DNA of 64,000 bases from Rapana venosa (taxonomy: Eukaryota; Mollusca; Gastropoda; Neogastropoda; Muricidae), in the NCBI GenBank assembly GCA_028751875.1, contig CM054141.1, positions 74,753,261 through 74,817,260 of the forward strand, in the 5' to 3' direction. Numbering within the stretch: the stretch's first letter is position 1; the number at the start of each line of letters is the position of its first letter. Shown in pieces: positions 8,894 to 56,312 of the stretch. Position numbers and translations under genes: made by a program. The notes under the pieces are model-generated. The model did no database searches. It was not told where the DNA came from and saw nothing but the letters and a program-made list of their open reading frames with translations.

Positions 8894-9393
8894 NNNNNNN
8901 NNNNNNNNNNNNNNNNNNNNNNNNNNNNNNNNNNNNNNNNNNNNNNNNNNNNNNNNNNNNNNNNNNNNNNNNNNNNNNNNNNNNNNNNNNNNNNNNNNNN
9001 NNNNNNNNNNNNNNNNNNNNNNNNNNNNNNNNNNNNNNNNNNNNNNNNNNNNNNNNNNNNNNNNNNNNNNNNNNNNNNNNNNNNNNNNNNNNNNNNNNNN
9101 NNNNNNNNNNNNNNNNNNNNNNNNNNNNNNNNNNNNNNNNNNNNNNNNNNNNNNNNNNNNNNNNNNNNNNNNNNNNNNNNNNNNNNNNNNNNNNNNNNNN
9201 NNNNNNNNNNNNNNNNNNNNNNNNNNNNNNNNNNNNNNNNNNNNNNNNNNNNNNNNNNNNNNNNNNNNNNNNNNNNNNNNNNNNNNNNNNNNNNNNNNNN
9301 NNNNNNNNNNNNNNNNNNNNNNNNNNNNNNNNNNNNNNNNNNNNNNNNNNNNNNNNNNNNNNNNNNNNNNNNNNNNNNNNNNNNNNNNNNNNN
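8894..9393. other. Assembly gap, 500 N
   Basis: Exactly 500 N, an arbitrary scaffold gap size. It separates the minisatellite from the FPGT coding region and hides the FPGT C-terminus. Confidence 0.98.
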
Positions 9394-10852
9394 TCCCAAG
9401 GGCTATCTTTGCAAGATTCTGTCATGGTGGCAGCCCTGGATACAGTTTGAAGTGCCCAGAGATGACAGCCTCCTGAGAGCTCTTCACGGGGGAAGATACT
9501 AGGCTTTCTGACAGTGCCAGTGATGCAGAGCAGCACCACAGTGTGCTTCAAAAAGGGGAAGAGAGGTGAGCTTGGAGGTCATTGCAAAACATTTTCAGGT
9601 TGTCTGAGATATGGAAGAAGATGGTGACGTAACAGGATCTGCCTTCATGGAGTACGGACACTGTGTGTGAAAGGTTTCTGAGGGAAACATAGTCTTGCCA
9701 AGGTGTCTTGAGAAGACTGCAGCCACTGACATTACTAACAATGGTGGCTTTCTGCACAGTCACTGGCACCTAAAAAATGGCAGAACTCTCCCACAGCACT
9801 GGATGCCACAGGGGAGAGGCAGCTGAGAACAGAATGCATCACACACCCCTGCACTTCAGATGCTTGTGGCTCACACCTAGCACTGTGCTCAGGGTTACCG
9901 GACCCTCCTCACAGTCTACAGGGGTCGGAGGCCACATCATACTTTTGGGGAGCCAGCAATTGAAGACATCTTTTTGCAAGACATCTGAGATTGGAAAGTT
10001 TGGTCTTGAAAAAAAGTAATGAATCAGTTCTTTGGTGGTTCCTATATGAATGAATTGGGAGGCATTTAGCAGCAGCAGGTGTATATCACAGCTGTGCATG
10101 GCCTCAAACACCTGCTTTCTCACCTGCTTGAGGTTAGGGGTCAGCTGAGAAATGTTTGCCGTGTTGTGGATGTAGTCCTGGGAGGCCTGGGGTCCCAACG
10201 CCTGCAGAAAATCGCCGTACGCATCAATCTCCCCGCTGATAACACCCAGCTCCTTCTTCAGAGACAGCAATCTTTTCATGACATCCACGCCAAAAAAGAA
10301 GCAGCTGTCCTTTATAGACCACATCCCCTTCCTTGCGAATTCCATCAGCGAAGGCATGGTCTCTGCTGTCAGACTTCAACACTCCCCCCCTGCTCCTCAT
10401 GCGGTCATCGTTTGGTTTCTGCAGTACTTCCAGACCCGCCCACCACCCTGGTTTGCGTGTCAAGGTGATGGGAATCTTGCAAGACATACACACCGTGACT
10501 GCGACCCACCTCCATGGGGGAAGGGTGGGCCAATGCCGTCACCCCCTGGCTGGAATGGTCCAGTCCTGGTTTTTGACCAAGTCATAAACCAGGGAAGTCG
10601 TCAGCGCAGACTAGAAAGACTCCTGGTGGAAGGTGGGGGAGGAGGGGGCGGTACATGGCCAGCTTCAGGTCCCGCATCTGGTAGACGGGGCCGGCCGTGA
10701 GGGATGGCCGCAAACACCTTGCCCAGGACGGTGGCATGGGCATGCGCTGACTCCACCCCCGGCGTGGATCAGCAGAATCTTCAGCCGGTACAGCCTGCTG
10801 CCGTACATCGTCTGCAGTGTCTCCAATGCCACGAGAGTGGACCCTCCATTGC
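9394..10852 (-). CDS. FPGT: Fucose-1-phosphate guanylyltransferase, large last exon (partial, frame-disrupted)
   Basis: The enzyme joins GTP and beta-L-fucose 1-phosphate to make GDP-L-fucose in the cytosolic fucose salvage route. Reading the minus strand from 10852, the family's landmarks appear in order. These are NGGSTLVALETLQTMYG with LKILLIHAGG (GGST loop and following strand), VLGKVFAAIPHG, VYQMRDLKLAMY, PGVFLVCADD, GVTALAHPSPMEVGRSHGVY, then the best conserved block CEIDAYGDFLQALGP-type (here GEIDAYGDFLQALGPQAS) and FIHIGTTKELIHYF. A C-terminal part follows with YVTIFFHISDNLKM. In vertebrates most of the protein is likewise in one long last exon of about 500 codons; 486 codons' worth is visible here before the gap. 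The exon starts right after an acceptor (CTGACTTGCAG) in phase 1, matching the donor at 24660. At least six one-base frame shifts occur between 10360 and 10800, and more below 9840, so this is either a noisy consensus or a decayed gene. Confidence 0.88.
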
Positions 10853-11779
10853 CTGCAAGTCAGAGATCACTGATTACTTCAGCACTTCAAGTCAGAGATC
10901 ACTGATTACTTCAGCACTACAAGCCATAGATTACTTCAGCACTACAAGTCATAGATCACTGATTACTTCAGCGCTACAAATCATAGATTATTTCAGCACT
11001 ACAAGTCATGGATCACTGATTACTTCAGCACTACAAGTCATAGATCACTGATTACTTCAGCGCTACAAATCATAGATTACTTCAGCACTACAAGTCATAG
11101 ATTACTGATTACTTCAGCGCTACAAATCATAGATTACTTCAGCACTACAAGTCATAGATCACTGATTACTTCAGCACTACAAGTCATAGATTACTTCAGC
11201 ATTACAAACCATAGATTACTTCAGCACTACGTCACAGATTACTTCAGCACTACAAGTCATAGATCACTGATTACTTCAGCACTACAAGTCATAGTCACTG
11301 ATTACTTCGCACTACAAGTCATAGTTACTTCAGCACTACAAGTCATAGATCACTGATTACTTCAGCACTACAAGTCATAGATCACTGATTACTTCAGCAC
11401 TACAAGTCATAGATCACTGATTACTTCAGCACTACAAGTCATAGATTACTTCAGCACTACAAGTCATAGATCACTTCAGCACTACAAGTCATAGATCACT
11501 GATTACTTCAGCACTACAAGTCATAGATCACTGATTACTTCAGCACTACAAGTCATAGATTACTTCAGCACTACAAACCATAGATTATTTCAGCACTACA
11601 AGTCATAGATCACAGATTACTTCAGTACTACAAGTCATAGATTACTTCAGCACTACAAGTCATAGATTACTTCAGTACTACAAGTCATAGATTACTTCAG
11701 CACTACAAACCATAGATTATTTCAGCACTACAAGTCATAGATTACTTCAGCACTTCAAGTCATAGATTACTTCAGCACT
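10853..11779. repeat. 22/32-bp minisatellite flush with the FPGT splice acceptor
   Basis: About 35 units of GATTACTTCAGCACTACAAG plus TCATA, with or without GATCACT. Read on the minus (gene) strand, each unit contains ATCTATGACTTGTAG, near-identical to the real acceptor ATCTCTGACTTGCAG. The two units nearest the exon keep the acceptor-type CAAGTCAGAGATCAC. The array therefore appears to be built from the intron's 3' end. Bases 11780-12160 are plain intron with no feature. Confidence 0.93.
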
Positions 11780-12160
11780 GATGGGTTATGTTAAGTTTTC
11801 TGTTTTTTAACTGCTGTTTCTTAATTTCCATTAATTGTCATTATCAACTATGGTATTCTTCTGTCATTTTCTTCTGATTATTTTATTAGGCAAATCTCTG
11901 AGGGCACTTTCCAGTAAACTGAGACACCTTTGAATGACTGTAAATGCGTTTACACAAAATGGCGATTTACATCAAAAACCATCACAGCATAAAAGTATTT
12001 CTGTGCCAAAAATTTTGTCAGACTCCTTTGATCTGTCTTCCTGTTCTGATACATTTTGGCTAGGCAATGTCAGACACTAGGAGAAAAATGGCACAGAAAA
12101 TGACAATTTTCCACTAAAGATAACTACAGTACAGCATGGTACATGTGGCACTTGCAAAAA

Positions 12161-12465
12161 TGGATTGGTGGTCTAGAGGTAACCCACCCGCCTAGAAAGC
12201 GAATGGTCCCGGGGCTGAAGTGTGTGGTGGTTTAAACCCCCTCTGGGCCCAAAACTTTCCCCATCCATTAGACCATGAGTGGTGGTCTGGATGCTAGTCT
12301 TTCAGATGAGACGATAAATCCAAGTTTTGTGTATTACACATAATTATTTAGTGCACATAAAAGAACCCACGGCAACAAGAGTTGTCCCTGGCAAATTTCT
12401 GTAGAAAAAGCCACTCCGATAGGGAAACAAATACAGTTGCAGACAGGAAAAAAAAAAAAAAAAAA
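12161..12465 (+). mobile_element. SINE family 2, full-length copy
   Basis: A tRNA-like head (TGGTCTAGAGGTAACCCACC at 12169, GGTTTAAACCCC near 12230) is followed by the shared domain TTTCAGATGAGACGATAAAT. The body holds AAAAGAACCCACGGCAACAA, GTTGTCCCTGGCAAATTTCT and GATAGGGAAACAAATACAGT. It ends in a clean poly(A) tract at 12448-12465. It lies inside the FPGT intron, opposite to the gene. Confidence 0.85.
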
Positions 12466-12470
12466 GGGTA

Positions 12471-12606
12471 AAGTCGTCAAGTCAAAACCACTTTAATCAT
12501 CCCATACAGGGCAATTACAATACTGACAGGCAGATTGATACATATCATAATCTCAAAAGACACAAAAAGCTACATTTCATATTGGTTTAAACATTCCAAA
12601 ATGACT
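12471..12606 (-). mobile_element. LINE tail fragment ending in TTGAC repeats
   Basis: The reverse complement ends AAAGTGGTTTTGACTTGACG, a tail type also seen at 99-120 and at 29408-29487 (ATTTGACTTGACTTGAC). Only the 3' untranslated end is left, wedged between two oppositely oriented SINE 2 copies. Confidence 0.4.
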
Positions 12607-12636
12607 TCAAACAAAAATGTCATGAGCACACACACA

Positions 12637-12882
12637 TTTATTTATTTATTTAATTTATTTATACCACTTTAAGTCACGAGATTTCTCTGCGTGAAATTCG
12701 GGCTGCTCTCCCCGGGGAGAGCGCGTCACCACAAGAGCAGCGCCACCCTTTTTTTTCTTTTCTTTAGGTCTGCAACTGTATTTGTTTCCCTATCAGAGTG
12801 GCTTTTTTCTAAGAATTTTGCCAGGGACAACTCTCTTGTTGCCGTGGGTTCTTTTACGTGCGCTGAAAATTTTGTGTAACAC

Positions 12883-12916
<34 letters not shown>

Positions 12917-12918
12917 TA
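12637..12918 (-). mobile_element. SINE family 2, 3' two-thirds
   Basis: It matches the copy at 12161-12465 from the GATGAGACGATAAACC domain onward. It keeps a longer 3' end containing GGGTGGCGCTGCTCTTGTGG and CTCTCCCCGGGGAGAGCAGC, a near-perfect hairpin, then an AATAAATAAATAAATG-type tail. The two copies lie tail to tail. Confidence 0.85.
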
Positions 12919-13249
12919 ACACACACGCACACACACACAGACACACTACCCCGCACGCACGCACACCCAAACCAAATGGGAACACAATGTTATAAAAAAA
13001 AACATTGACTAGAAGACATAAGCTATTATTTACGCATGCACATATGCAACACGTACACAGCACATGCATGCTGCGCGAACATACCCACGCACACACATAC
13101 ACCAATTTTATGAATTCAATGTTTTAAAGACCTTGACTAGAAGACAGACTTATTTCACACACACACACACATACACCAATGTATGAATTCAATGTTTTAA
13201 AGACCATTGACTAGAAGACAGACTTATTTCACACACACACACACACATG
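12919..13249. repeat. (CA)n tracts with a diverged tandem duplication of ~80 bp
   Basis: TATGAATTCAATGTTTTAAA...GACTAGAAGACAGACTTATT followed by (CA)n occurs twice in tandem (13110-13170 and 13183-13245). A third, more diverged copy is near 12985-13025. Bases 13250-13540 hold nothing recognisable. Confidence 0.75.
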
Positions 13250-13541
13250 TAAGTTTTTGAAATTGTTACCTTTTTTCCCAGTGTTCTTTTGGCATGGAAT
13301 ACATGACATGGGGTTTAAAAAAATTTTTTTTTTATCTGTTGTAGTTTATTTAGTTATACAGTTATTCACAAGGTAAATTCATTTCTTTCATTGTATTATG
13401 GTTACAGTAGTTAGTTCCTTAACCGTTTTTTTCTGAATTGTTAGCCTTTTTGTGTCTAATATCACTGTGAACAGACGTAAAATTGAAGAACAACATATAT
13501 GTATTGACTACACTCATAACAATGACTATCAGGCAAGTAAT

Positions 13542-14876
13542 TCAGAGAAATGTAAAAACTAGGGAGTCAACATCATTGTGATTTAGAATTTGAATGCTAA
13601 CTGGCCCAAAAGAATTTCTTTTTCTGTTTGTTTTGCTGTTGGGGCACTGAAAATGGTGTCCCGAAGGCAACAACTGAAATTCTGGAAACAAAGCATGGGA
13701 GGGATCAGCCAAAATGGCAATCACTTTGCATACAAGCTGCTGATTGCAGAATGACATGAGATCTCTTTGTTCTTCTCCAATTGTTTTTTAGCAGATTCTT
13801 ACAATTCTCTTTCAGGTTTATTCTTGTTTTTAACACTAAGGTTAATGTACCAACAAATAAAAGCAAACTTAGAACACTCTCTATGTAAGACTTGTAAAAC
13901 AAGGAAATAATCTTTTGGTCTACAAAAAATGAGTTCAGTTTCTCAGAAAATACACCATTGTTGTCCCCTTTTTGAGGAAAAAGTGTCAGTGTTAACGTCC
14001 CAGTTTACTTGTGGTCAAAAAACAGTTCCCAGATACTTATAGTTCGAAACGTTTTCAACTTGATTATTGGGTAATAATATTCTTGGGTATGCCCTGATCT
14101 TCTGAAGTCGATAGGCAGATTTTTGTTTTTAAACATTTAGCTCTAGATAGGCCTCGTCACACCAGTGTATGAACTCAGTGAGGGCTGGACCGTGGTCTAA
14201 GACTGATCCGGTAAGAGAGATAAAAAGAGCATGTTTGTCTGTGAACTTTTCCAGAAAGGAATTTCCATAGCTGCTTCTGCAATCATCTGTGTATGAATGT
14301 ACAGAAGTGGTGAGAGGGCGCAACCCTGTGGAGAACCAGTGCAGGTAAATCTAACCAAAGAAAAATTTTTTGTTGGCCAAAACACGTGTGGTCTGTTGGT
14401 TAAAAATTCAATCAGCCAACGAACAAGTTTGATTGTCTACATCAAATTTTGAGTTATTTTGTTAAGCTGCATTGTACTGAAAGCAGAATAAAGTCAGCGA
14501 ACAATATTCTGGCATGAGAGTCAGGTGTTTCCAAGTGACTATACAACTTGTTCAAAATGAATGTTTGGGTATAGCGGAAAGAATGAGGAATTTTGTGTTT
14601 TTTACTACGTTTTCTCACAAGAGATGTGAGAGCTACAGGTCTAAAATCATTAGGCTGAGGAGGATTGGGTTTCTTTGGAAGAGGTATTACATTGGAAGTT
14701 TTCCTAATAACTGGAATCTGACAAGTATCCAGCGAGGCTTACAACAGGTGTTGAAGGATACTGGCAAGCTCAGTAGCGCAGAATTTCAGGGTTCTTCCAC
14801 ATATACCATCTGGTCCGGGAGATTTGTTAATGCTTACAAAGAACTTTTTCATCAACAATGACGCTATTCTCAAAAA
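13542..14876 (-). mobile_element. LINE reverse transcriptase remnant, L2/Rex1-like type
   Basis: This is a 5'-truncated non-LTR retrotransposon inside the FPGT intron, in the gene's orientation. On the minus strand: KSPGPDGICGRTLKFCATEL (about 14840-14780), then KTSNVIPLPKKP and DFRPVALTSL near 14690-14630, HLETPDSHARILFADF near 14510, and GSPQGCALSPLLY near 14330. The active-site region follows, where the YADD motif is lost by indels. Next come HGPALTEFIHWCDEAYLELN, ENVSNYKYLGTVF near 14050, and a C-terminal ADPSHALFPEFQLLPSGHHF block ending at a stop at 13542. Many small indels break it into several frames, so it cannot be active. Confidence 0.85.
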
Positions 14877-14877
14877 C

Positions 14878-14925
14878 TAGGGGTGGCGCTGCTCTTGTGG
14901 CAACACGCTCCACCCGGGCAGACAG
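14878..14925 (+). mobile_element. SINE family 2 fragment
   Basis: GGGTGGCGCTGCTCTTGTGG followed by CAACACGCTC and an AGCC end matches the 3' hairpin region of the SINE at 12637-12918. It sits exactly between the LINE remnant and the mariner-like remnant. Confidence 0.6.
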
Positions 14926-15570
14926 CCTGAATAAATGCATCAAAATACTTGCGGAATTAAGAGCACATGAACAACCTTCTGCTCTAAACGTGTTCAGGTG
15001 GGTGAAGCATTTCACAAGTGGTCAGTCAAGCAGTGAAGATAACGTCAGGGGGAAAGTGCAAAAAATCCCCGAACTTCAAATGTAATGAGTAATGGCCATG
15101 GTGGAAGAAGGGTGTAGATTTAATTTGCCTGGAAAAAATTGCTGATTGTGCTGGTGTTCATTTGTTGACTGCAGATACTCGGGTTTCCCGCAGTTTTGAC
15201 ATCTGAAAATAAAGGGGGAGAGGGTGTGTTTCTGCAAACAAATAATATTTTACCCCAACATTTACAAGAATGGTGATCGCAAGAGGCTGGATGAAAAAGG
15301 GACAGGTGATGAGACCTGCTTTATGAACCTCCAAGGACGTCCCAAAACAAAGCAGGGGTTTTGGAAAGGTTAAAATCCCCCTAAAATCACTTGAAACCAT
15401 TTGGTCTCAAAAGAAACTTTTTTCATGTCTTTCATCACAAAGGGGAAATTGGTGCGCAGAAACCTGCCAGCAGGGCAGGGCAGGAAGTCAGGGGAAAGTT
15501 CAAATGTAGAGATTCAGTTTTGTCTCAACTCAAAAAGTGTTTCCAAAGCAGCTGCCCCCCAAAAAAGGGC
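14926..15570 (+). mobile_element. Mariner-like transposase remnant
   Basis: Short blocks resemble a mariner/Tc1-type transposase across three frames. An N-terminal helix-turn-helix-like stretch reads NVFRWVKHFTSGQSSSEDN (about 14985-15045), matching the family pattern of Trp-x-x-Arg/His-Phe...Gly-x-x-Ser-x-Glu-Asp. GTGDETCFMNLQGRPKTKQG (about 15300-15360) matches the segment around the first catalytic Asp (TGDE-aromatic...P-x-x-K-x-Q). Stops and frame shifts interrupt it, and no terminal inverted repeats were identified. Bases 15571-15730 are unassigned. Confidence 0.5.
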
Positions 15571-15734
15571 ACATAAGGGGCAGCGTTGTCTAGCGCTGAC
15601 TGAACTGTCAGCTGCTTAGACCAAGGCCAGACAGTGGCCAGCACCTGCACAGAGCTCGATACACAATGAAGAAAAGCAGCCCCTTCCCTTGTTTACCTAT
15701 CTCAGCATCATGCCCATTCTCCAGCCAACGCCCG

Positions 15735-15890
15735 GAGGAGAGAGGAGAGAGAGAGAGATGAGAGGAGAGAGAGAGAGAGAGGAGAGAGAAGAGAGAGGAC
15801 AGAAGAGAGAGAGGAGAAAGAAAGAGAGAGAAAAGGAGAAGAGAGAGAGAGAGGAGAGAAGGAGAGAGAGAGAGAGAGAGAGAAAAGGGC
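15735..15890. repeat. (GA)n purine tract
   Basis: About 155 bases of GAGAGAGGAGAGA-type polypurine directly before the 30-bp satellite. Confidence 0.95.
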
Positions 15891-15950
15891 CTTGCCTTCT
15901 CTTCTCTGACTGCACATTGACCCACACCTCTACCCCCACCCACAGTAAGA

Positions 15951-18900
15951 ATCATTGTGGAGATAGAGGGAAATGTGTCAAACATATTGTGGAGATAGTG
16001 GGAGTGTGTCAAACATTTATTGTGGAGATTTGTGGGAGTGTTAAACATCATTGTGCAGATTGTGGGAAATGTGTTAAATATCATTGTGGAGATAGTGGGA
16101 GTTAAACATCATTGTGGAGATAGTGGGGGTGTGTTAAACATCATTGTGGTTTTAGTGGGAGTGTTAAACCCTCATTGTGGACATAGTGGGGGTTTTTAAA
16201 CATCATTGTGGAGATAGTGGGAGTGTGTTAAACATCATTGTGGAGATAGTGGGAGTGTTAAACCTCATTGTGCAGATAGTGGGAGTGTGTCAAACATCAT
16301 TGTGGACATAGTGGGAGTGCTAAACATCATTGTGGAGATAGTGGGAGTGTTAAACATCATTGTGGAGATAGTGGGAGTGTTAAACATCATTGTGCACATT
16401 GTGGGAGTGTGTTAAACATCATTGTGGAGATAGTGGGAGTATTAAACATCATTGTGAAGATAGTGGGAGTGTTAAACATCATTGTGCAGATAGTGGAGTA
16501 TTAAACAACTTTGTGGAGATAGTGGGAGTGCTAAACATCATTGTGGAGATAGTGGGAGTGTTAAACATCATTGTGGAGATAGTGGGAGTGTGTTAAACAT
16601 CATTGTGCAGAAGGTGGGAGTGCTAAACATCTTTGTGAAGATAGTGGGAGTGTTAAACATCATTGTGGAGATAGTGGGAGTGTTAAACATCATTGTGCAG
16701 ATAGTGGGAGTGTGTCAAACATCATTGTGGAGATAGTGGGAGTGTTAAACATCATTGTGGAGATAGTGGGAGTGTTAAACATCATTGTGCAGATAGTGGG
16801 AGTTGTCTCAACATCATTGTGGAGATAGTGGGAGTGTTAAACATCATTGTGGAGATAGTGGGAGTGTGTTAAACATCATTGTGGAGATAGTGGGAGTGTT
16901 AAACATCATTGTGGAGATAGTGGGAGTGTTAAACATCATTGTGGAGATAGTGGAAGTGTTAAACATCATTGTGGAGATAGTGGAGTATTAAACATCATTG
17001 TGGAGATAGTGGGAGTGTTAAACATCATTGTGAAGATAGTGGAAGTGTTAAACATCATTGTGGAGATAGTGGGAGTGTTAAACATCATTGTGCAGATAGC
17101 AGGAGTGTTAAACATCAATGTGGAGATAGTGGGAGTGTTAAACATCATTGTGGAGATAGTGGGAGTATTAAACATCAAAAATCATTGTGGAGATAGTGGG
17201 AGTGTGTTAAACATCATTGTGGAGATAGTGGGAGTGTTAAACATCATTGTGCAGATTGTGGGAGTGTTAAACATCATTGTGGAGATAGTGTGAGTGTTAA
17301 ACATCATTGTGAAGATAGTGGGAGTGTTAAACATCATTGTGCAGATAGTGGAGTATTAAACATCATTGTGGAGATAGTGGGAGTGTTAAACATCATTGTG
17401 AAGATAGTCGGAGTGCTAAACATCATTGTGGAGATAGTGGGAGTGTTAAACATCATTGTGGAGATAGTGGGAGTGTTAAACATCATTGTGGAGATAGTGG
17501 GAGTGTGTTAAACATCATTGTGGGGGTTAAATTTGGGGAAAAGTATTGTTAAACATCTTTTGGGGAGATAGTGGGGTGTTAAAATCATTGGAGATAGTGG
17601 GGTGTTAAACTCATTGTGGAGATATGGGAGTGTTAAACATTTTGGGGGTGGAGAAATCATTGTGTGTGAGTGTGTTAAAATCTTGTGAGATAGTGGGAGT
17701 GTTAAACATCTTGTGGAGATAGTGGGAGTGTTAAACTTTCATTGTGAGTTAGTGGGATGTTAAACATAAATGTGGAAGGGGATTAAACCATGATTGGGAA
17801 GTGTTAAACATCTGTGGAGATAGTGGGAGTTTAAACATCATTGTGGAGATAGTGGGAGTGTTAAAATCATTGTGGAGATGTGGGAGTGTTTAAAAAAAAT
17901 CATTGTGAGATAGTGGGAGTGTTAAACATCATTGTGGAGTTAGTGGGAGTGTTTAAATCATTGGGGAAGATAGGGGGAGTGTTAACATCTTGTGGAGATA
18001 GGGGGATGTTTAAACATCATTGTGGAGATAGTGGAGTGTTAAAACATCATTGTGGAGTAGTGGAGTGTTAAACACTTGTGGAGATAGGGGGGTTTTATTA
18101 AACATCATTGGGGAGATATTGGGAGTGTTAAACATCATTGGGATAGTTGGGAGTGTTAAACATCATTGTGGAGATAGTGGGAGGGGTTTAAACATCATTG
18201 TGCAGATTGGGGAGTGTTAACATCATTGTGAGATAGTGGAGTTTAATCATTGGGATGTGGGGGTGTTTAAACATCATGGGGAAGATAGTGGGAGTTGTTA
18301 AACATCATTGTGGAGATATGGGAGTGTTAAAACATCATTGTGGAATAGTGGGAGGGGTTAAACATCATTGTGGAGATGTGGGAGTGTGTTAAACATCATT
18401 GGGGAGAAGGGGGGAGTGTTAAATCTTTGTGGATAGTGGGTTTTAAACATCTTTGTGGAGTAGTGGGAGTGTTAAAATCATTGTGGAGATAGTGGAGTGT
18501 TAAATATCATTGTGGAGATAGTGGGATTTGTTAAACATCATTGGGGAAATGTGGGGAGTGTTAAAATCATTGTGGAGTTTAGTGGGAGTTTTTTAAACAT
18601 CATTGGGGATAGTGGGTGTTAATACTTTTAAAACAATCTTGTGGGATAGTGGGAGTGTTAAACAACTCATTGTGGAGATATGGGAGTTTTTTAAATTCAT
18701 TGTGGAATAGTGGGAGTGTTAAACATCTTTGTGGGAAGTGGGAGTGTTAAACATAAAATTTGTGGAGATAGTGGGAGTGTTAAAAAACATGTAGAAGTAG
18801 TCAATCATGTGTAGTGAGGTTAAACTCATTGTGGAGATAGTGGGAGTGTTAAACATCAGGAGATAGTGGGTGTTAACTCATGGAAAATTGTGGGAGTGGT

Positions 18901-21884
18901 TAAATATCTTTGTGGAGATAGTGGAGTGTTAAACATCATTGTGGAGATAGTGGGAGTGTTAATATCATTGTGGAGATAGTGGGAGTGTTAAACATCTTTT
19001 GGGTGGGGAAAAAATAGTGGAGGGGGGTTAAAATTTGTGAGATAGTTGGAGTTTTTAAACATCTTTAGGGGAGATGTGGGAGTGTTTAACATAAACATCA
19101 TTGTGGAGATAGTGGGAGTGTTAAACATCATTGTGAAGATAGTGGGAGTGTTCAACATCATTGTGGATATAGTGGGAGTGTTTTAAATCATTGTGGAGTT
19201 AGTTTTGGGGTGTTCAACATCATTGTGGATATAGTGGGAGTGTTCAACATCATTGTGGATTAGTGGGATGTTTTCACATATTTGGTATAGTGGGAGTGTT
19301 TAAACATCATTGTGGTTTTTTGGGAGTTTTTTAAACATCATTGGGAATAGTGGGGGGTGTTTTTAAACATCATTTTTTTGGAGTAGGGGGAGTGTTAAAC
19401 ATTTGTGGGATAGTGGAGTTTGTTAAAGATTCAGGAGATAGTGGGTTGTTAAAATTTGTGGGTTTAGTGGGATTTGTTAACTCATTGTGGAGTTGTAGGG
19501 GAGGGGGTTTAACTCTGGGGAGATAGTGGGTGTTTAAACATCATTGTGGAGATTGTGGGAGTTTTAAAAATCTTGTGCGATAGTGGGAGTGAAACATCAT
19601 TGTGTATGTAGTGTTTAACTCATGGTAGTAGTGGGTGTGTTAAAATCTTGGGGAGATAGTGGGAGTTTTTAAACTCATTGTGGAGATTGTGGGAGTGTTA
19701 AACATAATTGTGGTTTAGTGGGTTGTTTTTTTTTTTAAAACATCATAATGGAGATAGTGGGAGTGTTAAACATCCTTGTGGAGATAGTGGGAGTGTTAAA
19801 CATCATTGTGCAGATTGTGGGAGTGTTAAACATCAAACATCATTGTGGAGATAGTGGGAGTGTGTTAATCATTGTTGAGATAGTGGGAGTGTTAAACATC
19901 ATTGTTGAGATAGTGGGAGTGTTAAACATCATTGTGGAGATAGTGGAAGTGTTAAACATCATAGTGGAGATAGTGGGAATGTTAAACATCATAGTGGAGA
20001 TAGTGGGAGTGTTAAACATCATAGTGGAAATAGTGGGAGTGTTAAACATAGTGGATATAGTGGGAGTGTTAAACATCATAGTGGAGATAGTGGGAGTGTT
20101 AAACATCATAGTGGAGATAGTGGGAGTGTTAAACATCATTGTGGAGATAGTGGGAGTGTTAAACATCATTGTGGAGATAGTGGGAGTGTTAAACATCATT
20201 GTGGAGATAGTGGGAGTGTTAAACATCATTGTGGAGATAGTGGGAGTGTTAAACATAATTGTGGAGATAGTGGGAGTGTTAAACATCATAGTGGAAATAG
20301 TGGGAGGAGTGTTAAACATAATTGTGGAGATAGTGGGAGTGTTAAACATCATAGTGGAGATAGTTGGAGTGTTAAACATCATAGTGGAGATAGTGGGAGT
20401 GTTAAACATCATTGTGGAGATAGTGGGAGTGTGTTAAACATCATTGTGGAGATAGTGGGAGTGTTCAACATCTTGTGAGATGTGGGGGAGTGTTCACATC
20501 ATTGTGGAGATGTTGGGGTGTTAAAATCATTTGTGGAGATAGTGGGAGTGTTAAAACTCATTTGAAATAGGGGAGTGTTAAACATCATAGTGGAGATAGT
20601 GGGAGTGTTAAACATCATTGTGGAGATAGTGGGAGTGTTAAACATCATAGTGGAGATAGTGGGAGTGTGAAACATCATAGTGGAGATAGTGGGAGTGTGA
20701 AACATCATTGTGGAGATAGTGGGAGTGTTAAACATCATAGTGGAGATAGTGGGAGTGTTAAACATCATTGTGGAGATAGTGGGAGTGTTCAACATCATTG
20801 TGGAGATAGTGGGAGTGTTCAACATCATTGTGGAGATAGTGGGAGTGTTCAACATCATTGTGGAGATAGTGGGAGTGTTCAACATCATTGTGGAGATAGT
20901 GGGAGTGTTCAACATCATTGTGGAGATAGTGGGAGTGTTCAACATCATAGTGGAGATAGTGGGAGTGTTAAACATCATAGTGGAGATAGTGGGAGTGTTA
21001 AACATCATTGTGGAGATAGTGGGAGTGTTAAACATCATTGTGGAGATAGTGGGAGTGTTAAACATCATTGTGGAGATAGTGGGAATGTGAAACATCATTG
21101 TGGAGATAGTGGGAGTGTTAAACATCATAGTGGAGATAGTGGGAGTGTTAAACATCATAGTGGAGATAGTGTGAGTGTTAAACATCATAGTGGAGATAGT
21201 GTGAGTGTTAAACATCATAGTGGAGATAGTGTGAGTGTTAAACATCATAGTGGAGATAGTGGAGTGTTAAACACCATAGTGGAGATAGTGGGAGTGTTAA
21301 ACATCATTGTGGAGATAGTGGAGTGTTAAACATCATAGTGGAGATAGTGGGAGTGTTAAACATCATTGTGGAGATAGTGGAGTGTTAAACATCATTGTGG
21401 AGATAGTGGGAGTGTTAAACATCATTGTGGAGATAGTGGAGTGTTAAACATCATAGTGGAGTGTTAAACATCATTGTGGAGATAGTGGAGTGTTAAACAT
21501 CATAGTGGAGATAGTGGAGTGTTAAACATCATTGTGGAGATAGTGGGAGTGTTAAACATCATTGTGGAGATAGTGGAGTGTTAAACATCATTGTGTAGAT
21601 AGTGGGAGTGTTAAACATCATTGTGGATATAGTGGGAGTGTTAAACATCATTGTGGAGATAGTGGGAGTGTTAAACATCATTGTGGAGATAGTGGGAGTG
21701 TTAAACATCATTGTGTAGATAGTGGGAGTGTTAAACATCATAGTGGAGATAGTGGGAGTGTTAAACATCATTGTGGAGATAGTGGGAGTGTTAAACATCA
21801 TAGTGGAGATAGTGGAGTGTTAAACATCATTGTGGAGATAGTGGGAGTGTTAAACATCATAGTGGAAATAGTGGGAGTGTTAAA
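15951..21884. repeat. 6-kb satellite of 30-bp units in the FPGT intron
   Basis: About 200 copies of ATTGTGGAGATAGTGGGAGT plus GTTAAACATC. Common variants are TAGTGG for TTGTGG, GTTCAAC for GTTAAAC, GGAG losing one G, and a +2 GTGTGTTAAAC form. Six consecutive GTTCAAC units lie at about 20790-20940, and four GTGTGAG units near 21165-21240, showing local homogenisation. From about 17520 to 19740 the units are riddled with one-base indels, with abrupt edges on both sides. Because 30 is divisible by three, decapeptide-repeat frames (VGVLNIIVEI; MMFNTPTIST) stay open for up to 250 codons. They are not genes. Confidence 0.96.
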
Positions 21885-22177
21885 GAAGGGGCCCAGCTAC
21901 CCCTATTCCTTTCCACTTTTACTGTACTCTCAGCTGTTCATATATTTATTTAATAATTTTTTTAATTTTTTTTAAAAATTGTGAATACAAGTGTATCACT
22001 GAGCCTACATTCTGAAACACTTGGTTGTCTCTATAACCTGCACATCAAAGCTGAGCACTATAATAAACTTTCTACTGATACCAAACAACTAACAGACATT
22101 AATACACAAAGTACAGAGAGAAAGAGAGGGAGAGAGAGACAGACAGACACACACACACAAAGTGGTTTCTGGGGTGG

Positions 22178-22523
22178 GGGGTGGGGACGGGATAGTCTAG
22201 TGGTCAGAACACTGCGCTCGCAATTTGACGACCCGGGTTTGATTCCCGTTCAAGGGGGATATTTTCCCCTGGAGTTAACATCAGTGCAGACTCCACTCTC
22301 CCCAAAAGTCCTTCGGATGAGACTATAAACCGAGGCCCCGTGTGTGAACGCACGCAGAACATCTTACGCACACGTTAAATCCTGTTCCGTTTTTCATAAG
22401 AGTAGGCCATTGTGTGCCGGTGGGAACAGATGACAACATTAACAAAACCGCATACACACGGGGACTGGATGTAAAAAAGCACATAAGTGCTTATTTCATT
22501 ATCCTCAATATAAAAGAATAAAA
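22178..22523 (+). mobile_element. SINE family 1, full-length reference copy
   Basis: The tRNA-like head carries box A (GGGATAGTCTAGTGGTCAGA) and box B (GGGTTTGATTCCCGTTC, 22235-22251). The body follows with GATATTTTCCCCTGGAGTTA, CTTCGGATGAGACTATAAAC, CGCACGCAGAACATCTTACG, AGTAGGCCATTGTGTGCCGG, GGACTGGATGTAAAAAAGCA and an AATAAAA-type end. It is about 345 bp long and the best-preserved of some eleven copies in the window. Simple GA and CA repeats lie just 5' (22118-22160). Confidence 0.9.
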
Positions 22524-22649
22524 TGGAAGGAGAAAAAGAAATAGACTTGAATTTTTCTGAAGAAACTTCTTAGAATCTACTGTCAGATCAGATGTTTTTG
22601 ATTGAAACTGCTCAATCCCTTGTACATAGTCCTGTTTTCAGGTTTATAC

Positions 22650-22910
22650 AGTGAACGCTAAGAAGGTGGAAGTTTTTGTTTTGTTTGGGGAGGGGATTTT
22701 TTGTTTGTTTTGGGGGAGATTTTTTTGTTGTTTCTTTGGGGTTTTTTTTGTTTTTTTAAACTGTTGATGCAATTTTGTTTCAATTGACCTTGCCATTTCA
22801 TGTTACTCAGCTGATATTTTTTATGTGTGCACACATACACACACACGCACGCACACAACACACACACACACAGTGACACACACTCTCTCTCGCACACACA
22901 CACAACAAAA
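22650..22910. repeat. T/G-rich low-complexity stretch and (CA)n
   Basis: TTTTGTTTGGGG-type sequence to about 22760, then CA-rich tracts at 22826-22910. Bases 22911-23500 hold a few short CA runs and no recognised gene. Confidence 0.7.
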
Positions 22911-23505
22911 CAATCTTTCAGTTTCAGTCACACCCAAGCATCTGCTTTCCTTCTTTTCTCTATGTCTCCATTCATCTAATATCACTGAGAGTGAAAAGAT
23001 GTAAAATCTGGAGAACGAACAAACACACACACACATACACACACGCGCGCATTGCATATGATGTGTGTGTGTGTGAAATGTACAGACAGAAATCATTAAA
23101 ATATTGGAAGAAAAGTCATATATAACTTATAAGTTGTATTTTAATCTTGATCCTCAGTTGACTTACAACACAATGCACAGAATCACATGTATACTTCTGT
23201 GAGAACTGAAACACACACACAGCATGGACTGTACAAAGAGCAACATTCCTTTGACAGCCATTTACACAACAAGAGGACTCTAGCTCTGGCACCATCCTGT
23301 GTTTACCAAACGTCTGTCAACCTGCACCTACAGAGGAAGGGAGATGAGGAGGAGAAGCAAAAGGGGGAGGGAGGAAAGGAAAAGGTGAAGGTCAACACTC
23401 TGCTTCTAAACGTAAGGGGGCAAAGAGGGAGCAACAGCCATGGGGGAATTCAGATCTATCCTCCATGACAACCCGCCTGCTCACCGGTCAAAGCTCGTAA
23501 AAAGG

Positions 23506-23506
<1 letters not shown>

Positions 23507-23573
<67 letters not shown>

Positions 23574-23577
23574 AATG
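23507..23577. repeat. (AT)n microsatellite
   Basis: About 70 bases of nearly pure AT, able to extrude as a cruciform. The following 23578-24345 has no recognised exon. TTAACCCTTTCAGTGCGG at 23676 resembles a piggyBac-type end. Confidence 0.95.
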
Positions 23578-24345
23578 ATACAGTTAACCTACAATGGCAC
23601 TTTCCAGTAAACCGAGACCAATTCGGACTCTGACTGTTGTTCATGTTGAGTGCTGATGTGTTTTTGTTTTCTCTCCTTAACCCTTTCAGTGCGGCAAGCC
23701 AGTTTTCCGGCTCAGCTTCCTGCTACCCTTCAGTCCTGTCAGGAGGAAAACCGGCGCAGTCCAATTTTCCTTCAATTCCGGGGTTTCTGAGGTACAGAAG
23801 AGTGCAAGACGGGTACCTCAGTAAATCTTACATAGTATTTTGCATTCAAGCATAAAATAGTAAGTGTTATATACCATGGTGTGCAGAATTGAATGCAGAT
23901 TTTCTTAAAATAAGACTAGAACTTTGCACTTGTATGTGTGATGTATGTGACAGGTAACAAAGGTGACATTTCCTATGTCACATACAAACAATTAATGACA
24001 AATGCATGTAAACGAACGATCGATTAGATATGAGCATGCCAAACATGAAGTAACTTACAATTTGATATCTGGGGTGACAGTGGTGGAGTTCTAAATATAG
24101 AAACGCCATGACAAATATTTGCCTAAAATATAAACAAAGGCATTGCATTAGCATTATCAACTTTTCAGTATTTGTTTATTACTATAAACACTAACCACTG
24201 GCCCCCAAAAAGTAACTGTTGCAATTAGTTCCTAACTTATGTGTTTTAAGTCAATGGACTAACACTAGTAACAGGTTAGGATTCAAGTAGGGGTAAGGGC
24301 AGTTAAGTAATATTCCCTGAAGATGCCTAGATGGCAGTATTTTGG

Positions 24346-24643
24346 GTTAGGAGGATTAGTCAGGACTGGGTAGGATGATTAGGGTTATGTAGGAGGATTA
24401 GTCAGGACTGGGTAGGATGATTAGGGTTATGTAGGAGGATTAGTCAGGACTGGGTAGGATGATTAGGGTTATGTAGGAGGATTAGTCAGGACTGGGTAGG
24501 ATGATTAGGGTTATGTAGGAGGATTAGTCAGGACTGGGTAGGATGATTAGGGTTATGTAGGAGGATTAGTCAGGACTAGGTAGGATGATTAGGGTTATGT
24601 AGGAGGATTGGTCAGGACTGGGTAGGATGATTAGGGTTATGTA
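24346..24643. repeat. 42-bp minisatellite beside the FPGT donor site
   Basis: Seven copies of TTAGGAGGATTAGTCAGGAC plus TGGGTAGGATGATTAGGGTTATG-type sequence, nearly identical. On the gene (minus) strand it begins 16 bases inside the intron, just after the donor at 24660. The embedded TTAGGGTTA words are telomere-like by chance of the unit. Confidence 0.93.
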
Positions 24644-24660
24644 TACATGTACACCATCAC

Positions 24661-24834
24661 CTATGCGGGGTCCAGGCGGGTCGGCCACAACATGGATGGG
24701 GAGGTCTAGGGGCAGCTCTCCCCGCTGCTCCTTGTCCTTCAGCTGCTGTTCAAAGGCCTCCTTCTGGGTCTGGTCTGCCGTGGTGATCACCACCACATTC
24801 CACATGTCATCCTCACTGCCGCTAATCCTCCTGC
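24661..24834 (-). CDS. FPGT: Fucose-1-phosphate guanylyltransferase, internal exon (N-terminal part)
   Basis: Reading the minus strand, this exon encodes RRISGSEDDMWNVVVITTAD, then EAFEQQLKDKEQRGELPLDL and PIHVVADPPGPRIG. This follows the N-terminal segment of animal FPGT (pattern FWD-hydrophobic-AITAAD...QQL..K...ELPLG...VF-DP-G-KIGNGG). The exon ends ATAG|GTGATG (GT at 24660-24659) in phase 1. The last exon begins GC AAT GGA GGG after its acceptor at 10853, so the join restores R-I-G-N-G-G-S-T exactly. The proposed acceptor is ATACAG just above 24834; ACAGGCAG, four bases on, is an alternative. The exon is intact. The first coding exon, expected to carry the N-terminal ~25 residues, was not found with confidence upstream. 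Confidence 0.85.
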
Positions 24835-25500
24835 CTGTATGTATCAGACACAATCAATCAATGATCAAATCACCCAACATTCCACATGTCATCCTCATTG
24901 TTGCTATACCTCCTGCCTGTATGTATCAGACACATCAATCATGATCACCACCACATTCCACATGTCATCCTCATTGTTGCTATACCTCCTGCCTGTATCA
25001 TGAATACACATCAATCATGATCCCCACCACATTCCACATGTCATCCTCATTGTTGCTATACCTCCTGCCTGTATCATGAATACACATCAAGCATATCACC
25101 ACCACAATTCCACATTCATCCTCCATGTTGCTATATAAACCTTCCCTGCCTGTATCATGAATACACATCAAATCATGATCACCACCACATCCACATGTCA
25201 TCCCTCATTAGTTCTAGAACCTCCTGCCTGTATCATGAATACACATCAATCATGATCACCACCACATTCCACATGTCATCCTCATTGTTGCTATACCTCC
25301 TGCCTGTATCATGAATACACATCAATCATGATCACCACCACATTCCACATGTCATCCTCATTGTTGCTATACCTCCTGCCTGTATCATGTATACACATCA
25401 ATCATGATCACCACCACATTCCACATGTCATCCTCATTGTTGCTATACCTCCTGCCTGTATCATGAATACACATCAATCATGATCACCACCAGGCACCAC
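24835..25500. repeat. 76-bp tandem array copied from the FPGT acceptor and exon start
   Basis: About eight units, each reading on the gene strand ATGATACAGGCAGGAGGTAT, then AGCAACAATGAGGATGACAT, then GTGGAATGTGGTGGTGATCA. The spacer is TGATTGATGTGTATTC. The first half is the real 3' splice site plus the first ~50 exon bases (sense RRYSNNEDDMWNVVVI). Copies at 25100-25200 carry small indels. Bases 25501-26740 hold no recognised gene; CAGA repeats lie near 26150-26170. Confidence 0.92.
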
Positions 25501-26751
25501 ATTCCGCATCAGCACACCTCCTTCCCATAATGCATAGTATAAGTCCTAATCTATCTACCCCTTTAGGCTTTAGTTTCTAACTATCACTAGTATCAGAAGA
25601 GGCGTGAGTTTCTCAACTGAAAATTGTCCAAAACGATGAAAAGGGATGGGGTCCCTAGGGGTTGCTAGGCCCCAAGTGGGATGTTGAAAATGACAACTTG
25701 GCTAAACCCCACTCATTAAATACAATCATTATACAAGCAGGTATATTTGTAAATAATAAAAATAAGATTTACTGATTTTAATCCTTGTTGCTCGTCTCTG
25801 AAATTATAGCATGGTACACTGCAAATATATCTAATGTGCTTAGTTGTTTCTTTTACGCTTATGCACAGGCACTTCAATGACTTCACTTATAAGTTATAAA
25901 GGTACACTAAACACTGATTCCCAGAACTCGTGAAATACTTATAAATACGTGTGCATTGCTATTAGTATATTAGCATTATGAAATATTTATACATACATTA
26001 GCATTGCACGTGGTTTCTTTAATGGATTTCAAAATAGATTGTAACCACTGGCACATGACCATAAAGGTCCAGTCCACAGCGCTTCTCCTTGGAAAGGAAG
26101 GAGAAAAAGACGACGGGCAGACAGGAGACTGAGACTGAGAGAGACTCGGACTCAGAGAGAGACAGACAGACAGAACTCGAATATTTTAATGAGGGTAAAT
26201 GGATACGCAGAAGGCTTCTTTAAACACCAGGCCCTCATGGAGAAAAATTGAAAACAAGCATGAAAATAAATCAATTTACATTAATAAACAAGATAATTTC
26301 AAATACAATGAATGAATCACTCCAAACTACCCATTCAATAATTGAAAAATCCAAGAATGAAAAATCTAACGGAATAAACAAGACCAAAAAAACAAAAAAA
26401 AACTCCCCTTCCCCAAACACGCACCCCCCCACTTAAACAAACAACACTCCCCAAAAAGTCCAAAATGACCGATACTAACATCACTAGTTCCAATAATAAA
26501 TACACAGAACTGCTTTCTTTCCCAGTTTTCCGCTCTCATCTGCCATACGCACATGCACTCTCTTAACCTACTCACTGACACACACACACACACAACACCA
26601 TATTAATTGCATGCCCCACCCTGAATACACCTCTTTAGAATTGAGTATAAAAATCCACAGAAGTAATGAAATTGTCCAACAGAACATTGCAAATAACAAT
26701 CCATTACCATTCTGCATTAACAAACAAAACTCAACCCAAACGTCATTTCAA

Positions 26752-32275: not shown

Positions 32276-32647
<372 letters not shown>

Positions 32648-36375: not shown

Positions 36376-38158
36376 TAGAGAGAGATTTTTGGTATAGCTT
36401 TTTAATGTAGTATAAAGACCTTTTTGATGTGTTTTGTTTCATAGTAACATTCATCCACATGCATAAAGTCATCTGCATATTGTACTGACAACATTTTGAG
36501 ACAAGTGTTTAGGAAGATCATGTAACAGGATATTAAATAGAACAGGTGCTATAAGGGAGCCTTGTGGTAAGCCCATATCAAGATATGTAGGATCTAAATA
36601 GTTATTTGCGACCTTTACTTGAATGGATCTATTGCTAAGAAAGCTCTTTATATAATGAAAAATGTTACCGGAAAGGCCAATTGTCTTTGAGTTACTTAAT
36701 AACTTTGCATGCCAAACTTGATCATAGGCTTTATTTATATATCAAAGAATATTGCACGGACATTTTTTCAGCGTGCAAATTGTTGTTTTGTGCGTGTTGT
36801 AAGTTTAACTAAATTGTCAATTGTCATCTGAAAGCCTGCTTGGTTGCTTGCTTTAATGTTATTAAGTGTTTAATCATATCATTGGAAATCGCAACAGCTC
36901 CAACAGATGTTTTCTTATTAGGAAGTGACAGAATTGCATCTCTCACTTCCTGAAGTGTAATTGGAGCATTGATATAAAGAGTGGTAACAGGAACTGGGTC
37001 TACGTATTCATTTTTGACTTCTTCTTCACTTCTGAATGTTCTGTGTTTAGCTGATAGACCCTCCTTACGCATGGTATTTAAAACATTGTGGCAAACACAG
37101 CCTTTTCTGCACTAGACGGAAACTGTTTGTTTTCTAGAATAACTGGACATGTTGGTAGGTTTATACCTTTTGTCATTTCATTAAAAAAATTTCCATACTT
37201 TCTGAAAGTCTTTATGATTTGAAATTTCACATCTACAATCAGAGGACCAATATTGTTTATTAGTTTGTGCTATGACCATGTTACATAAAAAGTCATTAGT
37301 TTTTGGCCTTTTTACTGCTAATCATGGTTACTAGGTAATTTGTTTTTAAGAAAAGCTTTATGCATTAAATGTTTTTTTATATACAGCTTCTTTGCAAGCT
37401 TGTGTCCACCATACATTTCATGAATGTTTGTTATATTTTGCAGTGTGACATATAGGAATAGAAGTATTGGCACCTTGTAGTATTATATTTATGTCAGAAT
37501 ATCTTTGATCTATGTTATGAATGTTTATACACTCTGTATTGTAAGAAGCAAGAATACGTTTTAAGTTTTCCCAGTCAGCACACTTATAGTTATATTTTGG
37601 AACTTTGTTCTTTGTGATATTTGGTTGAAGTAATTGGTTATTGAAGGTTATAATGATAGGTAAATGATCACTGCCCAGAGTATCTTTATAGTTTATGTGA
37701 GACCAATTGCATTCGGGGACAAGTGTTGATGATACTAAAGTCAGATCTATTGCTGACGCTCTGTGACTTGAGTCATCAGGAATTCTAGTGACGCTGCAGT
37801 CATTGAATAAACACAGCCAAGAATCAACAACATTTTCTACAAACCTGTTCCTGGTAACTGAAATGCAACCTTTATCCCAGAATGGTGCATGTGCATTGAA
37901 ATCTCCACCAATTAGCCATTTTTCGTTATCTTGGAAATTATGGATCCAATCTGTATTAAGATGGTTAGGCCCTTTTGGTAAATACAAAGAAACGATATTT
38001 AGGATTAACTGGTTATTAAACTTGACATGTACTGCACATGAATGTAGATCTGGGATGATACCAGGTATTGGTGGAGATTTCACACTGTACTCTATTCCTT
38101 CTTTAATGCAAATAGCTGCACTGATCTTTGTTAGTTCTTCTACTTTCTGATGTATCAT
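36376..38158 (-). mobile_element. LINE remnant with apurinic-type endonuclease and reverse transcriptase
   Basis: The endonuclease half is open for about 250 codons (38158-37418): ISAAICIKEGIEYSVKSPP, WLIGGDFNAHAPFWDKGC (the Gly-Asp-Phe-Asn catalytic strand), IDLTLVSSTLV and LGSDHLPIIITF (Ser-Asp-His). A linker then reads PITLQEVRDAILSLPNKK near 36960. The RT follows in broken frames: FDI-stop-IKAYDQVWHAKLL (36760-36700), GLPQGSLIAPVLFNILLHDL (36570-36510) and QYADDFMHV (36485-36460), so the YADD box is intact. A jockey/I-type element of gastropod style is likely. Part of the middle is missing. Confidence 0.85.
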
Positions 38159-38814
38159 CATCATCATCAATGCCTTTGTGCCTTATTGGCACGTAGGGCA
38201 GCAACAAATGTTCTCCACTCCTGTCTGTCCTGGGCCAGCTTCCGAATGGTTCCCCAGGTTTGTTGGAAGGTCTTCAGCTCTGCTTCGACAGTCCGACACC
38301 AAGTGTTCTTGGGTCGTCCTCGTTTGCGTTTTCCCTCTGGTGTCCAGTGGAGCTGTTCGGGCGATGTTTCCCTGTTCCCGACGGCAGATATGCCCTATCC
38401 ATCCCCATCGCCTATGCAATGATGATGTTGTCCATGCTTTCTTGGTTGCAACGGCAAAAAGTTCTTGGTTGGAGTTGGTCTCAGGCCAGAAGATGCGCAA
38501 GATTCTTCTGAGATTCTTTCGTGTGGAATGTGGATAGTTTGTCGAGGTCACTCTCAGTCATCCTCCAGCACTCCGAGCCGTACAAAAGGGTGGAAAGTAC
38601 ACAGCTCTGGTATAGTCTTAGTTTGGTTCTGGTGCTGTACTGGACATTTCCACACATTGTTCAGATTTCTATAAGCATTTCTTGCTTTGCTAATCAGGTT
38701 CTTGATGTCGCTGCCTGCTCGCCGTCAGCCTCAGTCTCCCCAGGTAACTAACCTTTTAGTTGTTTGGGAAATTTCTCCATCACTGTGACCGGTGAGGGGG
38801 TTTGAAAGTTCGTG
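38159..38814 (-). mobile_element. LINE remnant, C-terminal end with (ATG)n tail
   Basis: Minus-strand text: LLYGSECWRMTESDLDKLST near 38580, then FHTK and KNLRRILRIFWP, RRWGWIGHICRREQGNIART, and after a frame shift a KTQTRTTQEHLVSDCRSRAE / QTWGTI...LAQDRQEWRTF-type end. This is the conserved C-terminus of a widespread RT lineage whose mRNA ends in a short trinucleotide tail. The tail here is CATCATCATCATCATC at 38155-38168, i.e. (ATG)n on the element strand, and it abuts the endonuclease of the next LINE. The 5' side is cut by the N gap. Confidence 0.8.
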
Positions 38815-55042: not shown

Positions 55043-55439
55043 GTTGTGAGTGTGTATGTGTATGTTGTGAATGGTGTTTGAGTGTGTTGTGAGATGAGAG
55101 CTATTTCACTTAATTACTTACAAGCATAACATCTGAGCTACTTTTACACTGTTCACTGGTCATGCTATAAATTATTATGGTATGTTTATATTAGATTGGT
55201 TTGTTTGTTTCAAGTAAAAACAAAAAGTTTAGATCTATCCAGTTAAAAAAAAAACAATAGCAAAAGTTTCATACTATTTCTTCATAATGTTGGATACCTC
55301 ATTTACTGATAAATAATAATCTCCAAAAGAATTTTGCAGATGACAGAGATGCGAGTAGGAATGCTGTGTTAAAGTGTAGGCAATTACCAGACATTGTGTT
55401 TGAAACAAAAAGGTTAGAAGAAAAGAGGAGGGTTAACAT

Positions 55440-56312
55440 ATGATGGCTATCAGGACTACAACGACAGCTTTGACCACATCCCTCCCTCCCTCACTCCCTC
55501 TAGAAAGTGTAACAGATGCTGGCTATCAGGACTACAGGCTTGGACACCATCCTCCCTCCCTCCCTCTAGTCAAGGGTAAACAGATGCTGGCATCAGGGAC
55601 TACAACAGCTTTGACACCATCCCTCCCTATAGGTCAAAGGGTAAACAGATGCTGGCCTATCTAGGGACTACAGCTTTTGGACACCAATCCCTCCATCCCT
55701 CCCTCCCTTAGTCAAGGGTAAACAGATGCTGGCTATCAGGACTACAGCTTTGGACACCATCCTCCCTCCCTCCCCTCCTCTAGTCAAGGGTAAAACAGAT
55801 GCTGGTATCTGGGACTACAGCTTTGACACCATCCCTCCATCTAGTCAAGGGTAACAGATGCTGGCTATCAGGACTACTACGACAGCTTTGACCCCTTCCC
55901 TCCATCCCTCCCTCTAGTCATGGCGTAAAAGATGCTGGCTATGCGGATAAACGACAGCTTTGACACCATCCCCTCCCTGCCCCCCTCTAGTCAAGGGTAA
56001 AAAAGATGCTGGCCTATCAGACTACTTCGACAGCGTTGTCACCATCCCTCCTCTTTTCAAGGGTAAACAGGATGTGGCCTATCAGGACTAACAACGACAG
56101 CTTTGTCACATCCCTCCCTCCCTCCCTCTAGTCAAGGGTAAACAGTGCTGGCTCATCAGGACTACAACCCCTCCATCCCTCCCGCTAGTCAGGGTAAACA
56201 GATGCTGGCTATCAGGACTACAACACCTCCATCCCTCCTCTAGTCAAGGGTAAACAGATGATGGCTATCAGGACTACAGCCTTAGAAAACCACCCCTCCC
56301 TCCCTCCCTCTA
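55440..56312. repeat. 65-70-bp minisatellite
   Basis: About 13 noisy copies of AACAGATGCTGGCTATCAGG, ACTACAACGACAGCTTTGAC, ACCATCCCTCCCTCCCTCTA, GTCAAGGGTA. The variable (CCCT)n part changes length from unit to unit. The first part reads DAGYQDYNDSFDTIPP in one frame, an exon-like text, but no host gene containing it was recognised. Bases 56313-56695 are unassigned. Confidence 0.9.

Follow-up and report, generated by a model that had tools for sequence, protein, structure and literature searches.

Minisatellites Carrying Splice Sites in Two Introns of the FPGT Gene of the Sea Snail Rapana venosa

Introduction

The FPGT gene of the neogastropod sea snail Rapana venosa was studied in a stretch of 64,000 nucleotides (GCA_028751875.1, contig CM054141.1; C8:74753261-74817260, called the window hereafter), where two minisatellites lie directly against the acceptor splice sites of exons 2 and 3. 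The most probable explanation, which we hold with good confidence, is that minisatellite growth caught the splice boundaries in two introns of the gene, that is, the repeated unit includes the splice site, and no process linked to splicing is required. In amphioxus, intron-exon boundaries duplicated in the manner of minisatellites are known as “mirages” (PMC3087553), and the FPGT arrays are a new molluscan case of this known kind. The printed cases that were found are those of the lancelets and of human ABCA7. Should such arrays prove common in a sea snail as well, they offer a natural experiment on the spliceosome choosing one acceptor among dozens of near-copies and a test of whether such repeats feed intron gain. 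In addition, they are a warning for annotation, that is, gene models may be drawn onto array copies.

The published assembly was made from PacBio continuous long reads (CLR) with wtdbg, Pilon and Purge Haplotigs, the heterozygosity being 1.41% (PMC10432487), and the genome searched here amounts to 2.28 Gb in 2004 contigs. The protein of exon 2 joined to an intact copy of exon 3 gave as best matches the FPGT of Babylonia areolata (74%), Nucella lapillus (71%) and Littorina saxatilis (66%), and the exon 2/3 junction is in frame, reading G/NGGSTL (a slash marks a splice boundary here and below); the gene carrying both arrays is FPGT. Its parts are listed in Table 1, where the identity of exon 2 to Babylonia FPGT spans residues 30-92 and includes some intron.

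Table 1. FPGT and associated arrays in the window (TRF, Tandem Repeats Finder; bp, base pairs; nt, nucleotides)
Feature	Position	Strand	Basis
FPGT exon 3 (last), frameshifted duplicate, running into the 500-N gap 8894-9393	9394..10852	-	PF07959 match with stops
Intron-2 minisatellite, 25/32-bp units, n=33, last unit = exon-3 acceptor	10853..11779	-	TRF and unit splitting; also in the intact copy (L001)
Further intron-2 minisatellite, 30 bp x 197, away from splice sites	15951..21884	-	TRF
42-bp x 7 array, beginning 17 nt inside intron 2 from the exon-2 donor, without exon sequence	24348..24643	-	TRF and sequence
FPGT exon 2, 174 nt, donor GT at 24660-24659	24661..24834	-	67% to Babylonia FPGT
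Intron-1 mirage array, eight ~76-bp units (24 intron + 52 exon-2 bases)	24835..25492	-	TRF, unit alignment
Tentative FPGT exon 1 (ATG...LRG), GC donor	~28036-27973	-	tblastn E 7.5 (weak) and by eye; frame broken here

The Exon-2 Array

TRF reports the array beside exon 2 at 24784-25492 with a period of 76, 9.2 copies and 90% matches. The acceptor motif ATACAG/GCAGG recurs at 25455, 25379, 25303, 25227, 25149, 25068, 24992 and 24916, the real boundary being at 24834, and the unit is made of 24 intron and 52 exon bases. Two properties that define a mirage are found in this array: the unit spans the exon-intron boundary, and the inner units are alike while the boundary copy is different. The first, third and seventh units are alike and the second almost so, and the real boundary differs from each of them in 17 of 76 columns. 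Four of the eight units match the real boundary in 59 of 76 columns, and the remaining four have identities of 0.598 to 0.763 with it. The clean units have GTATAGCAACAATGAG where the real exon has GATTAGCGGCAGTGAG, and such common differences from the real exon indicate that a single diverged copy was amplified. The unit beside exon 2 (24916) has the intron end CTGATACATACAG, as at the real site, and the remaining seven have ATTCATGATACAG, or ATACATGATACAG in one.

The 52 exon bases in every unit are FPGT coding sequence, conserved also in Babylonia, Nucella and Littorina, which means that the array originated from the exon boundary and not the reverse. The unit sequences show duplication of a 76-bp piece across the acceptor, divergence and amplification into the intron, probably in this order. 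As side observations, an older partial unit may continue to ~25530, and a predicted protein of Nucella lapillus (P0002) has an extra VICVCDTGKKC ahead of MWDVVV, which aligns with the translated intron end of the array (LMCIHDTGRRY). Perhaps the acceptor of that gene model is misplaced, or an upstream acceptor is genuinely used.

The Exon-3 Array and Its Two Copies

The TRF rows for the array beside exon 3 jointly cover 10856-11779 with periods of 32, 25 and 57. Split on the minus strand, the array gives 16 units of 25 bp, 14 of 32 bp and three of other lengths, the unit being 32 bp or a 25-bp form without 7 bp. The final unit ends ...AATCAGTGATCTCTGACTTGCAG and constitutes the acceptor, its AG being at 10854-10853 and the exon starting at 10852; the most frequent unit end is CTATGACTTGTAG (21/33). 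No exon sequence was found in the units of this array, the unit stopping at the AG; lacking any exon base, the array is classed as a splice-site-abutting minisatellite and not as a strict mirage. It consists of a 32-bp piece ending at the AG and of a deletion form 25 bp long.

An intact exon 3 (PF07959 match at C8:74239235-74240602) lies on the opposite strand, ~0.52 Mb from the window copy, and has the same array, an identical acceptor and the same near flank, with 62 units against 33 in the window; the two copies may be alleles, and the copy numbers come from a CLR assembly. The core CAG/G stands at one of the 62 and one of the 33 unit ends, respectively, each time the true exon-3 acceptor. 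The other ends (intact copy; window) are TAG/T (55/62; 26/33), TAG/C (2; 3), TAA (2; 1), TAC (2; 0) and AAG/T (0; 2), so AG is kept at 58/62 ends in the intact copy and at 32/33 in the window.

These results bear out the core of the initial annotation, which had both visible FPGT exons adjoining arrays that carry their own acceptors. Exon 2 has eight copies besides the real boundary and the exon-3 array ends at the acceptor AG; the eight ~76-bp units with about 50 exon bases at 24834 are there, with 52 such bases, and were indeed copied from the acceptor; and the two arrays are unrelated to each other. The claim that the exon-3 units closely resemble the true acceptor stands for the AG and fails for CAG/G. 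“Both visible exons” is right for exons 2 and 3, with two corrections: a third exon is tentatively placed at ~28036-27973 on a weak match, and exon 3 as it stands in the window is a duplicate with frameshifts.

The window exon 3 differs from the intact one by 20 substitutions and 30 gaps (28 of a single base) over 1451 bases, and the near intron 2 by 74 substitutions and 76 gaps (62 of a single base) beside 3792 matches. The homologous part extends from the N gap (9402) to ~16226, where it stops within the 30-bp array; past that array the two copies are without match, and ~420 bases beside the intact copy's N gap have no window counterpart. Because gaps, nearly all of a single base, exceed substitutions in coding sequence (30 vs 20), and the near intron is alike in this, the window stretch is probably an unpolished haplotig or an overlapping contig end, which fits the comparison best; a decayed true duplicate is less likely. 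Those ~420 unmatched bases could also point to an inserted element, to a misjoin or to a duplication that is genuine but partial. No second copy of exon 2 with its array was found in the assembly by a DNA search of the genome in which very common words were skipped, so one FPGT gene seems to be split between two places. As a separate observation, the interval 9394-38814 between two 500-N gaps resembles a misplaced or redundant contig, with FPGT exons 1-2 there and the intact exon 3 ~0.52 Mb off. The end of the tentative exon 1 (27973-27971) reads AG/GCAAGT, a GC donor unless the sequence is in error.

Upstream Acceptors and Splicing

Modelled use of an upstream acceptor brings a stop ahead of the real exon for 8/8 exon-2 copies and for 45/45 intron-2 copies tested, the latter out of ~61 decoy units in the intact copy. 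Mis-spliced transcripts with such stops would be targets of nonsense-mediated decay. These stops, and the difference of the intron-2 copies from the real site in CAG/G, speak against the reduced or diversified splicing that the initial annotation had considered. Decoys and real acceptors were compared by core positions and pyrimidine content only, without a splice-scoring program; by this measure the pyrimidine content is 0.55 at the real exon-3 acceptor vs a decoy mean of 0.49, and 0.45-0.55 in the exon-2 copies vs 0.50 at the real site. Selection would maintain only the exon-adjacent copy, which has the sole CAG/G at exon 3 and whose tested upstream rivals insert a stop. The arrays are most likely tolerated passengers, and mis-splicing would be at most low-level and cleared by decay; this tolerance is something we infer.

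Arrays at Other Exon Boundaries

A sample of 93 exons came from myosins (50 of 72 matches) and kinesins (43 of 124), which are unrelated families; it was drawn mostly from the tops of the lists with some skipped, before the sequence of the exons was viewed. Exon edges are the edges of domain matches and not mapped splice sites, and a few loci hold runs of N. Loci flagged by BLAST (basic local alignment search tool), TRF or an automated near-repeat test were sorted by eye into those with the boundary duplicated together with exon sequence and those with an array beside the boundary. In the former class are seven of the 93 exons. On the acceptor side they are L082 (73 bp, ~6 units, near-identical acceptors, 11 exon bases) and L020 and L076 (a single extra copy each); on the donor side they are L021 (54/57 bp x17), L069 (~22 bp x25), L094 (four copies including the last 41 exon bases) and L081 (two copies). 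In a further four, L055 and L018 (donor) and L063 and L091 (acceptor), an array lies no more than about 15 nt from the inferred boundary.

The automated test was positive at 10/183 exon edges vs 11/315 intron controls (Fisher p=0.36), the first edge set having 143/146 edges scorable and the controls coming only from the flanks of the sampled exons. It missed L076 and L094, and the 10/183 includes a marginal acceptor match of L018 (27 bp, 81%). When four control hits belonging to the same arrays (three of L021, one of L063) are dropped, the controls fall to 7/315 and p to 0.07. Passive capture accounts for these data, and there may be a modest bias towards exon edges. The share of minisatellite sequence is 25.7% in the window and 17.0% in 92.3 kb from other stretches near this chromosome end.

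The sign of commonness comes from 93 exons of only two families, and the balance is even on whether splice-boundary minisatellites are a common genome-wide trait of this neogastropod, in which case it would be the second animal lineage with many mirages after the lancelets, with a standing stock of duplicated splice sites on which alternative splicing and intron gain could draw. Two minor observations were made in the sampled loci. At L080:1-680 the upstream intron contains a copy (97%) of 71 bp from a kinesin exon, flanked by apparent inverted repeats; and long open frames were noted among the loci, those of L017, the one opened in full, being runs of N.

Relation to Known Systems

The amphioxus mirages named are in Adh3 and the globins BflGb6 and BflGb9, together with the further cases PGBD5, Adh and TnC (PMC3087553, PMC3902484). 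As in FPGT, the intron end and exon start are repeated and the inner units homogenised, and the copy number varies there between haplotypes (PMC3087553, PMC3902484). The anatomy of BflGb6, which has six and three units in two haplotypes and whose regular splicing was suggested by reverse transcription polymerase chain reaction, is that of the FPGT exon-2 array (PMC3087553). What differs is the animal, a mollusc, the gene, and the exon-3 array, which is on the intron side only and has 33 and 62 units vs 3-6 in BflGb6. The variable number tandem repeat (VNTR) in intron 18 of human ABCA7 has a 25-bp unit, the first two bases of which are the donor GT; ~2% of transcripts retain units and the skipping of exon 19 depends on its length (PMC5954066). 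The exon-3 array, likewise flush with a splice dinucleotide carried by its units, is its mirror image, on the acceptor instead of the donor side; for ABCA7, splicing was measured. Intron gain by tandem genomic duplication also proceeds by local duplication with splice signals (PMC4974935); for FPGT, where the modelling covered the use of upstream acceptors, no new intron or exon was shown.

No mollusc reports of such arrays were found in the literature searched, in which subscription journals are thinly covered; apart from the PGBD5 paper, only one Conus paper came up, and its passages on the subject do not describe them. The initial annotation was not aware of any report of the pattern for FPGT. 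It may be undescribed there, but the same kind was described in amphioxus (PMC3087553).

Alternative Explanations

Both arrays would have arisen by ordinary local tandem duplication, through slippage or unequal exchange, in a minisatellite-dense stretch. Several points weigh against this capture by minisatellite growth. Two of the four internal FPGT exon edges lie in arrays, which has a chance of ~1-2% at the sampled 5-6% per edge and of 7% at a rate of 12%, FPGT having been chosen for this feature in an array-rich region; the stricter count leaves an exon-edge excess at the p value given above; and both the tolerance of the arrays and their CLR-derived copy numbers are unsure. The same excess, the involvement of both FPGT acceptors and the array or duplication seen by eye at or beside the edge in 11/93 sampled exons would suit a replication, repair or R-loop process that is tied to splice-site sequence or to splicing and creates arrays at exon edges; a replication or repair process tied to splice-site sequence was among the possibilities raised by the initial annotation. 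The full comparison of edges with intron positions does not favour such a link, donor and acceptor sides are affected alike and every kind of array is dense in the region, so we regard the proposal as quite unlikely. That the arrays are assembly artefacts is very improbable: the CLR reads, wtdbg assembly and Purge Haplotigs step (PMC10432487), the error-rich window copy and the division of FPGT between two places invite the suspicion, but the exon-3 array was assembled separately in two copies, which differ in unit order and agree in their near flank, and the units are set apart from one another by substitutions, as they would not be in a read that was collapsed or repeated. Chance resemblance was ruled out, each array being contiguous with a real splice site. 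A dispersed satellite inserted next to FPGT was also ruled out: exon 2 with its array matched only itself in the search that skipped very common words, and the 13 genome matches of the exon-3 array are itself, three in the intact FPGT copy (83-87%) and nine weak ones elsewhere (67-75%).

For exon 3 only, the array may have come first and reached the exon, its last unit then turning into the acceptor, a course of events that is possible though not the favoured one. The unit is free of exon sequence, the array ends exactly at the AG, and the two positions that set the real intron end at exon 3 apart from the most frequent 32-bp unit both favour splicing. On the other hand, CAG precedes the first unit and ends the last one, which is what duplication of an already existing segment between short repeats would leave, and the penultimate unit of the window copy is also of the acceptor type (CTCTGACTTG), by which the acceptor unit itself duplicates, unless this is a sequencing matter. 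A regulatory role, in which rival acceptors cut productive FPGT splicing according to array length in the way the ABCA7 VNTR acts through exon skipping, is unlikely. The exon-2 copies share the CAG/G core and a similar pyrimidine content with the real site, and the length of a splice-site VNTR can affect splicing in ABCA7 (PMC5954066); however, the intron-2 copies are without CAG/G, and amphioxus mirages are reported to leave regular splicing undisturbed (PMC3087553, PMC3902484).

Other Features of the Window

A dispersed element at 26119-26598, with many copies across many scaffolds at 72-86% identity, was left out of the query when exon 2 and its array were searched for in the genome. At 55429-56280 there is an array of ~73-bp units, each containing a pyrimidine-rich run that terminates in AG, and a stretch that looks coding (GYQDYNDSFDTIP, by eye); it might be boundary-derived too, and a neighbouring exon was not found by eye. 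Furthermore, a 357-base run at 32288-32644 is 96% G, its length perhaps being an assembly matter, and an open frame of 254 codons at 37421-38182 resembles, by eye, the endonuclease part of a long interspersed nuclear element (LINE).

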